33,503 nt of DNA from Candidatus Gastranaerophilales bacterium (GTDB lineage Bacteria > Cyanobacteriota > Vampirovibrionia > Gastranaerophilales > Gastranaerophilaceae). The notes beneath the pieces were generated by a model. That model had not been told where the DNA came from. It searched no databases and was given only the letters and a program-made list of their open reading frames with translations. Positions 32,375-33,444 of the stretch are shown here, in pieces; position 1 is the first letter of the stretch, and each line of letters begins with the position of its first letter. The DNA is taken from NCBI GenBank assembly GCA_944324835.1, contig CALUXV010000019.1, positions 1 through 33,503 on the forward strand. Reading direction: 5' to 3'. The position numbers and the translations under genes were made by a program.

Positions 32375-32402
32375 TTGATTTACATGCACGAGATATTATA
32401 TT
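32375..32402 (+). promoter_or_regulatory. predicted promoter of the small hydrophobic peptide mRNA
   Basis: TTGATT (32375-32380), 16-base spacer, TATATT (32397-32402). The predicted start near 32410 leaves a roughly 70-base leader. In it CCCC at 32432-32435 can pair with the GGGG of the ribosome site at 32472-32476 (helped by CCG/CGG nearby), which would mask translation. Confidence 0.45.
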
Positions 32403-32481
32403 AAAATAATTACGGGTAAGCTCCTATTCTTCCCCGCCGACACAAACTTGTTAAGAGGATTATAGCGGAAAGGGGGTGATG

Positions 32482-32559
32482 ATGGTGAAATTCTATATAA
32501 CAGAAAAAGCACTATGGCTTATCTTGCTGATAATCATAGTGCTTTATTACACCAAATAG
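32482..32559 (+). CDS. small hydrophobic peptide, candidate type I toxin
   Basis: A 25-residue frame, start MVKFYITEKALW, core LILLIIIVLYY, end TK: a single membrane helix between short basic ends. AGGGGGTGAT at 32471-32480 is one base from the perfect complement of the 16S rRNA end, a very strong ribosome site. The ATG at 32479 (26 residues) is in frame too, but 32482 has the better spacing. Just after the stop codon comes a long terminator hairpin, and a convergent antisense unit overlaps the 3' half. The layout is that of type I toxins such as TxpA/RatA or Fst, but the peptide matches none that I can name. Toxicity is inference from this architecture. Confidence 0.6.
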   Translation: MVKFYITEKALWLILLIIIVLYYTK

Positions 32560-32610
32560 GGAGTTAAGAAGAGCCTTAAGAGAACTCACCTCTTGAGGTT
32601 CTTTCCCTAT
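32502..32610 (-). ncRNA. candidate antisense antitoxin RNA
   Basis: Predicted transcript from the promoter at 32644-32617, starting near 32610 and ending in the U-run just past 32506, about 110 bases. It is fully complementary to the last two thirds of the peptide frame and to the 3' hairpin of the peptide mRNA. The region also folds by itself into two stem-loops, giving loops for initial contact. This is the size and placement of known type I antitoxins that act on the toxin mRNA's 3' part. No expression data were available. Confidence 0.55.
32506..32545 (-). terminator. hairpin inside the peptide frame; terminator of the antisense RNA
   Basis: AAAGCACTATG (32506-32516) and CATAGTGCTTT (32535-32545) form a perfect 11-bp stem, extended by TTATC/GATAA inside. 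Read on the minus strand it is followed by TTTTTCTGTT, a good intrinsic terminator. Because it lies within a coding frame, it is unlikely to be chance. Confidence 0.8.
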
Positions 32611-32616
32611 ATTTTT
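32556..32616 (+). terminator. long 3' hairpin terminator of the peptide mRNA
   Basis: ATAGGG (32556-32561), AAGAA (32566-32570) and CCTTAAGAG (32574-32582) pair in order with CTCTTGAGG (32590-32598), TTCTT (32599-32603) and CCCTAT (32605-32610), followed by ATTTTT. The stem begins inside the stop codon region of the peptide. Confidence 0.85.
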
Positions 32617-32644
32617 ATTATACATTATGTTTTATATTTTACAA
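32617..32644 (-). promoter_or_regulatory. predicted promoter of the antisense RNA
   Basis: Minus strand TTGTAA (32644-32639), 16-base spacer, TATAAT (32622-32617). The perfect -10 box and fair -35 box make it stronger-looking than the toxin promoter, as expected for an antitoxin. Confidence 0.6.
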
Positions 32645-32671
32645 GTAAAAACAGAGATTACATAATTCATA

Positions 32672-32875
32672 TTAATCAGGAATAAATTCAAATAATTCTT
32701 GCGTATTACATTCCAAAGCATTACATAATTTATTCATCGTATCAAAACTGACACTTTTAGTCTTATTATAATAAAGGTTTATAACTGCACTTTGACTTAA
32801 TCCAGTTAATCTTTGCAATTCTGACATCTTTATTCTTTTACGCCCCAAAATTTCTGATAATTTATTATTAATCAT
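32672..32875 (-). CDS. small XRE (Cro/C1-type) helix-turn-helix regulator
   Basis: 67 residues that consist of one HTH domain: KLSEILGRKRIKMSELQRLT (helices 1-2), GLSQSAVINLYYNKTKSVSF (recognition helix) and DTMNKLCNALECNTQELFEF. It resembles YozG-like mini-repressors. It starts 7 bases after the stop of the next HTH gene upstream on the same strand, so the two are one unit. No ribosome site of its own is visible. Its stop codon is 28 bases from the antisense RNA promoter, so it may influence the small-peptide locus; that is inference from position. Confidence 0.8.
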   Translation of the reverse strand: MINNKLSEILGRKRIKMSELQRLTGLSQSAVINLYYNKTKSVSFDTMNKLCNALECNTQELFEFIPD

Positions 32876-32882
32876 ATTATAA

Positions 32883-33092
32883 TTATTTTCTTTTTATAAA
32901 TGTTAAATCATAACCTAAAATATCACAAATGGCTAATAACTCATTAAATCTAAGAGTATTGTTTCTTAATTTATTGCTTAAACCGGAACGAGATAAACGT
33001 TTTCCAAGCATCAATGATATTTTTGATGCTAAATCTGTAATTGTCATTTTTTCTTTTGCCAGTAATATCTTTATGTACTCTTGTGCTCCCAT
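32883..33092 (-). CDS. small helix-turn-helix protein
   Basis: 69 residues: GAQEYIKILLAKEKMTITDL, then ASKISLMLGKRLSRSGLSNK (turn and recognition helix), LRNNTLRFNELLAICDILGY and DLTFIKRK. The pattern fits small XRE-like proteins in which the last helix and a beta strand close the domain. On the minus strand TATAAT stands 7 bases before the ATG and there is no ribosome site, so a leaderless mRNA is likely. The gene is divergent from the frameshifted XRE gene at 33209 and is followed by a second HTH gene in the same direction. Confidence 0.75.
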   Translation of the reverse strand: MGAQEYIKILLAKEKMTITDLASKISLMLGKRLSRSGLSNKLRNNTLRFNELLAICDILGYDLTFIKRK

Positions 33093-33121
33093 AATTTTAA
33101 TTATATCTTTGCTTTAAAAAA

Positions 33122-33150
33122 TTGTATAATACTCATTTATGCGTTATAAT
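33122..33150 (+). promoter_or_regulatory. predicted promoter of the frameshifted XRE gene
   Basis: TTGTAT (33122-33127), 17-base spacer, TATAAT (33145-33150); start near 33157. It overlaps the region upstream of the divergent HTH gene at 33092, so a single repressor could control both directions. Confidence 0.55.
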
Positions 33151-33208
33151 AATGTGACAAATGTTTTATTATAATAACGAATAGTTAAGAAATTTAAAGA
33201 AGTAGATT

Positions 33209-33444
33209 ATGAATATATACAAATATATAGGTGAAAAGATAAAAAAATTAGGGAACATGCCGGCATGAGCCCAAAAGAATTTGCCCATAAAAGCGGGCTT
33301 AGTCTTTACAAACTAAAAAGAATTGAAGAGGGAAAACACAAAATAACGTTTATAACTTTATGGATTATCTGTGAAGTACTTAATATAAAAGTCAGCGATT
33401 TGCTTAAAAATATTGAATCACAGATGAATTGTAAACAAATGTAA
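33209..33444 (+). pseudogene. XRE-type regulator split by a one-base shift at an A7 run
   Basis: From the ATG at 33209 the frame reads NIYKYIGEKIKKLGNMPA and stops at 33266-33268. Moving back one base at the A7 run (33241-33247, in phase A AAA AAA) gives IGEKIKKIREHAGMSPKEF followed by AHKSGLSLYKLKRIEEGKHK, a complete Cro/C1 HTH domain that continues to the stop at 33442-33444 (about 78 residues). The ATG at 33265 could give only a truncated domain lacking helix 1. It may be a frameshift mutation, a phase-variable tract, programmed -1 frameshifting, or an assembly error. AAAGAAG is a weak ribosome site. Confidence 0.7.

Follow-up and report, generated by a model that had tools for sequence, protein, structure and literature searches.

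A likely type I toxin-antitoxin-like locus in the Gastranaerophilaceae, with antisense recognition probably coded by a direct repeat

A chromosomal locus of a Candidatus Gastranaerophilales bacterium is likely to be type I toxin-antitoxin-like, with an antisense recognition step coded by a short direct repeat. This assignment was inferred from sequence, toxicity and expression being untested; its RNA-level parts, taken alone, are held with higher confidence and are very probably as described. Comparative sequence evidence supports selection on the peptide frame, both promoters, the antisense terminator, the helix that masks the Shine-Dalgarno (SD) sequence, a helix between the 5′ and 3′ ends of the mRNA and the joint change of the repeats. 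The candidate type I reading made in the original prediction is supported, with "toxin" inferred from the architecture in the absence of transcript or toxicity data. The family was apparently undescribed before.

Layout of the locus and folding of its RNAs

The window, that is, the whole stretch of 33,503 nucleotides analysed, belongs to a genome of 97 contigs and 2.0 Mb. The locus lies at window positions 32375-32644 and contains the following features, with the evidence for each in brackets:

32379-32407, + strand: promoter of the sense (peptide) mRNA, TTTACA-17-TAAAAT (sequence; relatives)
32419-32425, + strand: 5′ arm of the long-range helix, AGCUCCU, pairing with 32559-32565 (MFE fold, co-change)
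32431-32439, + strand: anti-SD arm UCCCC-G-CCG, pairing with CGG 32466-32468 and GGGGG 32472-32476 (covariation)
32450-32455, + strand: 5′ copy of GTTAAG, in the loop of the SD hairpin (match to 3′ copy; accessibility)
32470-32480, + strand: Shine-Dalgarno sequence AAAGGGGGTGA (sequence; family-conserved region)
32485-32559, + strand: peptide gene, class A, (V)KFYITEKALWLILLIIIVLYYTK, 24 residues from GTG 32485 (pN/pS)
32503-32544, − strand: antisense intrinsic terminator within the peptide frame, stem 32507-32516/32535-32544, U5 32508-32504 (recoding, covariation)
32503-32610, − strand: predicted antisense (antitoxin) RNA, ~108 nt (fold; conserved promoter and terminator)
32556-32616, + strand: 3′ terminator hairpin of the peptide mRNA, AUAGGG...CCCUAU then UUUUU (sequence, fold)
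32559-32565, + strand: 3′ arm of the long-range helix, GGGAGUU (MFE fold, co-change)
32563-32568, + strand: 3′ copy of GTTAAG, in a bulge of the 3′ hairpin (match to 5′ copy; accessibility)
32617-32644, − strand: antisense promoter TTGTAA-16-TATAAT (sequence; family conservation)

All the parts described in the original prediction were found at 32375-32644, and the observation was confirmed. The SD sequence is one base off perfect, as claimed (AAAGGGGGTGA, perfect form AAAGGAGGTGA), the upstream CCCC proposed as its mask is present at 32432-32435, in a helix backed by compensatory changes, and the long 3′ terminator hairpin (32556-32610) precedes a T5 run. The opposite-strand TTGTAA-16-TATAAT promoter (32644-32617) also held and is conserved in the family. 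The antisense RNA of about 110 bases held as a prediction (~108 nt, from ~32610 to 32503), and so did its in-frame terminator, a strong minus-strand hairpin that has a T-run. The 25-residue peptide held when counted from ATG 32482; from GTG 32485, a start conserved in relatives, it has 24 residues, and longer in-frame starts are present at 32476 and 32479. The parts that had been missed were the sense promoter, the GTTAAG direct repeat (32450 and 32563) and the 5′-3′ long-range helix.

The mRNA is predicted to start around 32414 at GGGTAAG, downstream of TTTACA-17-TAAAAT. Across relatives, a TATAAT-like −10 box upstream of the GGG matched at 6 of 6 positions in 35/105 elements (7% in shuffles) and at 5 of 6 in 56/105 (41% in shuffles), the sense −35 box being weak. 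On the antisense side, the −10 box was a perfect TATAAT in 60/105 elements, compared with 6% in shuffles, and a perfect TTGACA −35 box at 15-19 nt was present in 42/105. The 3′ terminator hairpin of the mRNA was kept in relatives with varying stem sequence, as judged by eye. Folded alone, the predicted sense RNA (~32414-32616) reached −67.9 kcal/mol (z −5.2 vs. shuffles) and the antisense RNA −41.0 kcal/mol (z −5.5 vs. shuffles). Since both strands fold about five standard deviations better than shuffles and the unit is kept in 8/8 genomes of the genus, the locus was considered to be more than chance.

The two helices of the mRNA were supported by sequence change across relatives. The central pair of the SD helix (21-65) appears as A-U, U-A, C-G, U-G and G-U across the family, and 90.4% of cells were paired, with a score of 0.262 vs. 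0.156 in shuffles (0/500). For the long-range helix, the 5′ end tracks the 3′ UTR type in the combinations GCTCC/GGAGT, GTACC/GGTAC, GTTCC/GGAAC and GCACC/GGTGC, the changing 5′ end lying opposite the 3′ UTR variants GGGAGU, GGGUAC, GGGAAC and GGGUGC. Cognate duplexes averaged −9.15 kcal/mol vs. −5.30 kcal/mol for cross-type ones, each group being best on its own partner. The 3′ arm doubles as the foot of the 3′ hairpin, so that the long-range helix and the 3′ hairpin are mutually exclusive. By analogy with other type I toxin mRNAs, these exclusive folds may constitute a metastable switch.

Peptide classes and the in-frame antisense terminator

About 106 distinct elements were found on one chassis, composed of convergent promoters, SD hairpin, 5′-3′ helix, 3′ terminator and in-frame antisense terminator. 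Three mutually unrelated peptide classes are all placed at the same SD of this shared chassis. Class A (54 elements, consensus MxFxITEKALWLILLIIIALxxxK) is transmembrane, class B (around 42 elements, consensus MKREIIKSALTVLIALLQIIIIFL) is amphipathic with a moment of 0.51, and class C (7 elements, 31-32 residues, ending near PELELLELFLxS) is weakly hydrophobic, its best 17-residue hydropathy being 0.91. The peptide frame is under purifying selection in all three classes, with a pN/pS of 0.43 in class A (616 pairs, pN<pS in 96%) and of 0.46 and 0.44 in classes B and C, respectively, from far fewer pairs. The comparison of synonymous and non-synonymous changes, named in the original prediction as a check on the frame, was thus favourable (pN/pS 0.43).

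The statement that the peptide resembles no nameable toxin was consistent with the database searches, since no credible match was found for classes A, B and C in Pfam, NCBIfam, PHROGs or PADLOC. The class A peptide had no credible match in the PDB, and the peptide strings searched were absent from the papers searched. A TatA match to the peptide (E 0.05, 13 residues) was dismissed as a generic membrane helix.

Class C peptides (...KAPELELLELFLNS) were located at L159, L167, L175, L176, L179, L003 (1797-2053) and L071 (1098-1358); they sometimes adjoin a class A or B element, and their mode of action may differ. As a separate observation, the frame is broken by insertions of tens of bases in L100 (reverse strand) and in L080 (near 1064-1190). 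With the chassis largely intact, these broken frames might point to toxin loss.

The in-frame antisense terminator is selected beyond the coding of the peptide, as shown by synonymous recoding. Its mean energy in class A was −16.3 kcal/mol, compared with −5.6 kcal/mol after recoding, and the same comparison gave −15.6 vs. −5.8 kcal/mol in class B and −18.5 vs. −6.9 kcal/mol in class C. The observed class A sequence was the best in 53/54 cases against synonymous recodings, and the observed terminator beat the best of six such recodings in 91/95 elements. In 94/95 elements, the terminator was at −8 kcal/mol or below, while recoded sequences were around −6 kcal/mol. In addition, double changes were found at 7 pairs of the class A stem (0/500 shuffles). 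Compensatory changes, also proposed originally as a check, were found in the SD-masking helix as well as in the in-frame hairpin.

Reading the terminator on the sense strand, the non-Watson-Crick cells were C-A in 55 cases vs. G-T in 11, so that on the antisense strand the bases still pair, as G-U. Such strand-biased wobble is direct sequence evidence of which strand's RNA folds, in this case the antisense. The antisense RNA, inferred from sequence with its transcript unobserved, is backed by comparative evidence in the form of a conserved promoter, terminator and structure.

Proposed recognition repeat, distribution and alternative explanations

Across the family, a direct repeat of 6-9 bases has one copy in the SD-hairpin loop and the other in the 3′ UTR. 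The two copies shared at least 6 bases in 101/106 distinct elements, compared with 11% of cross-type pairs, and after shuffling the 3′ ends among elements (1000 times), a mean of 38/106 and at most 50/106 were matched. The search model left out the 3′ half, and for the many elements picked up with the 5′ leader alone, the 3′ match was a blind test. Seven hits beyond automatic parsing were checked by eye: the repeats matched in L145, L160, L168 and L177 and partially in L164, L103 was truncated by the contig end, and the frame of L100 carried an insertion.

Nine repeat types were distinguished (GTTAAG, GTTATG, GTTACG, ACGAAG, ACTAAG, ATGAAG, GTGAAG, GCGAAG and GCAAAG). When the repeats were masked for tree construction, 27 and 26 changes were counted for the two copies. 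Supported independent pairs changed in the same way, with none opposite among the tests inspected, and GTTATG gave 7 supported independent pairs (p 0.016).

A role of the repeat in cis, by pairing inside the mRNA, was ruled out, as direct copies cannot pair together. The antisense RNA exposes CUUAAC, the complement of the 3′ GTTAAG copy, and since it carries this complement, it can pair with both copies. The unpaired probability was 0.74 for the 5′ repeat vs. 0.50 for the whole leader/UTR, and 0.80 for the antisense repeat vs. 0.36 for the whole antisense RNA. Antisense repression of the toxin is an inference without binding data, supported by the co-switching and by the exposed repeats beside the SD.

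The same repeat type was found with different peptide classes, and vice versa; therefore, toxin and code are exchangeable. A bolder reading, towards which the balance tips only slightly, is that of a modular chassis with interchangeable unrelated peptide toxins and a nine-type repeat "barcode" in the SD loop and the antisense RNA. This barcode would set which antisense silences which mRNA, with orthogonal pairs side by side in one genome. Tandem neighbours differed in repeat type in 7/8 pairs, but no claim was made from this because about 70% is expected by chance.

The repeats were mismatched or lost in 5/106 elements. Mismatched 5′/3′ repeats (e.g., GTTATG vs. GTTAAG) were observed at L106 (397-464), L123 (163-231), L150 (374-438) and L147 (176-240). 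These elements are possible broken or newly diverging pairs and could serve as natural negative controls.

Locus DNA matched 8/8 genomes of the genus, with full-length matches at 76-100% identity, and 54/191 genomes of the family in 22/41 genera. A covariance model of the 5′ leader only (R1; 68 nt, 9 pairs, rough E-values) matched 136/383 family genomes in 27/41 genera, with 1-6 copies each, often in tandem; around 65% of family genomes had no R1 match to the chassis. R1 also matched three genomes from two other families of the order, and among the genomes of the class that were sampled, no match lay beyond the order. The genomes searched were largely metagenome bins, and named records with an R1 match were labelled Candidatus Gastranaerophilales, Melainabacteria, "Cyanobacteria bacterium" or uncultured bacterium. 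Three pattern hits in viral contigs (R1 scores ≤14 bits) and those in Treponema and other non-Gastranaerophilales (without R1 match) were rejected as chance.

Multiple, tandem, intergenic and patchy copies could suggest a miniature mobile element, or a family of non-coding repeats, spreading without host function. This explanation can be practically discounted given the codon-level selection, the compensatory changes and the co-switching repeats; moreover, no relative was found among the 72,556 plasmid and 50,697 phage records searched. The flanks are ordinary chromosomal genes varying by locus (leuS, SMC, def, ribH and others, named by eye). A leader peptide or attenuator for a downstream gene would agree with a terminator hairpin directly 3′ of a short frame. 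However, it is highly improbable, since downstream genes vary by locus and are often convergent, and the antisense promoter, in-frame antisense terminator and matched repeats serve no attenuation role.

A third alternative, considered unlikely, is a non-toxic small membrane protein (a membrane-complex regulator or stress peptide) tightly held by a cis antisense RNA. In its favour, toxicity lacks assay data, class C hydropathy is low (0.91) and the neighbours are ordinary chromosomal genes. Against it, three unrelated short peptides occur on one repression chassis, two of them clearly membrane-seeking (A transmembrane, B amphipathic), and patchy presence with tandem multi-copy arrays is more in keeping with type I toxins than with a small fixed subunit. 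The type I toxin-antitoxin-like locus is the preferred reading.

A second chassis with class A peptides was observed at L086 (1507-2591), L088, L090, L094, L098, L082 and others. Its leader differs (hairpin loop ACTTCAAAT/ACTGAAAAT), as does its 3′ hairpin (GGGGCTTTTAA...GCCC). The copies, as many as four in tandem, lie about 305 bp apart, and the antisense promoter is strongly conserved. No matching direct repeats were found when sought by eye in this second chassis, and therefore the repeat step is not universal.

Next to the locus, a block of about 770 bp (window 32661-33426), located directly downstream of the antisense promoter, contains two small Cro/C1 HTH genes (HTH_26, − strand). The block is cleanly missing from the syntenic locus in a sister species (L002), where a few bases join the flanks. 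A third HTH-like gene (window 33209-33443) has an apparent frameshift, reading MNIYKYIGEKIKKLG... and then ...REHAGMSPKEFAHKSGLSLYKLKRIEEGKHKITFITLW in another frame, and could be a pseudogene or an assembly error.

Comparison with known systems and proposed mechanism

The original prediction had likened the locus to TxpA/RatA- and Fst-like systems. The TxpA/RatA likeness held for the 3′ overlap, while family membership failed on toxin sequence; the Fst likeness was closer than claimed, owing to the direct repeats, while membership failed on toxin sequence and layout.

According to a review of par/Fst (PMC7472228), direct repeats covering the translation start are where the antisense RNA pairs; a 5′ stem-loop encloses the SD, and paralogues are believed to be kept apart by differences between their repeats. 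Like par/Fst (RNA I/RNA II, Enterococcus plasmid pAD1), the new family has convergent promoters, the SD in a 5′ stem-loop, a 5′ helix that sequesters the RNA end, short direct repeats as a second antisense pairing site at the translation start (one repeat pair here) and a repeat sequence that varies among paralogues. By analogy, it appears to be par/Fst-like at the contact step. However, there is no peptide similarity, the PXXXG motif is missing from the class consensus sequences, and there is no shared bidirectional terminator, the mRNA ending at 32556-32616 and the antisense at 32544-32503. Also unlike par/Fst, the antisense RNA overlaps the 3′ UTR as well as a large part of the frame, with its own in-frame terminator, and the repeat is in the SD-hairpin loop, its nine types being spread over the three peptide classes.

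TxpA/RatA, BsrG/SR4 and yonT/SR6 (Bacillus) and the Clostridioides difficile pairs are convergent, 3′-overlapping and chromosomal, with a small hydrophobic peptide (PMC5848175, PMC6563280). The new family shares with them the 3′-overlapping convergent RNAs, the small hydrophobic peptide and the chromosomal copies, but not the peptide, as neither similarity nor a TxpA-like family match was found. None of these systems is known to have a direct-repeat recognition site at the SD. The RatA RNA family (Rfam RF01776) gave no match in a cmscan of the window or in 9 genomes, the latter being a weak search in which controls were also silent, and an Rfam scan at E up to 5 gave chance hits only. The locus was filed in neither family because its peptides, its own in-frame antisense terminator and its long TxpA/RatA-like 3′ overlap differ from par/Fst. 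It can be described as a putative Fst/par-like recognition step within a TxpA/RatA-like overlapping layout, without sequence relation to either.

In AapA/IsoA of Helicobacter pylori (PMC6733600), a 5′-3′ interaction is also involved. The AapA mRNA is kept inert through folding, by SD sequestration and a 5′-3′ long-distance interaction. In the new family, a 5′-3′ helix covaries, its effect on translation being only inferred; the peptide is unrelated, without an AapA family match, and AapA/IsoA is not known to have a direct-repeat code. From the sister group Cyanobacteria, msoT1/msoA1 of Microcystis aeruginosa was reported as the first candidate type I pair in that group (PMC12390103). Like the present locus, it is a candidate; msoT1 has 63 residues with two predicted membrane helices and is a different, single locus. 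According to that paper, of July 2025, Proteobacteria, Firmicutes and Tenericutes were until then the only groups with known type I systems (PMC12390103).

In the proposed mechanism, the + strand RNA (~32414-32616) would encode the membrane-spanning peptide of 24-25 residues. The full-length mRNA, with its SD in a hairpin and its 5′ end on the 3′ UTR, would allow little translation. The − strand RNA (~32610-32503) would be complementary to the 3′ UTR as well as to a large part of the frame; its CUUAAC would pair a second time with GUUAAG in the SD-hairpin loop, via the direct repeat. Loop-to-loop contact at the repeats would be followed by zippering along the long 3′ duplex, which would lock the SD closed and mark the RNA for RNase III. 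On loss of the antisense RNA, the freed peptide would insert into the membrane, with damage or depolarisation. Four elements of this scheme are inferred only: expression of the two RNAs, translational repression through antisense binding, a part for RNase III and a toxic effect of the peptide.

The finding adds a large multi-copy family of candidate type I loci in the non-photosynthetic, animal-gut sister group of Cyanobacteria. The jointly changing repeats provide evolutionary evidence for an antisense first-contact site, which is usually located by mutagenesis, and the family supplies naturally occurring RNA switches that appear to be orthogonal and for which cognate and non-cognate pairs are predicted.
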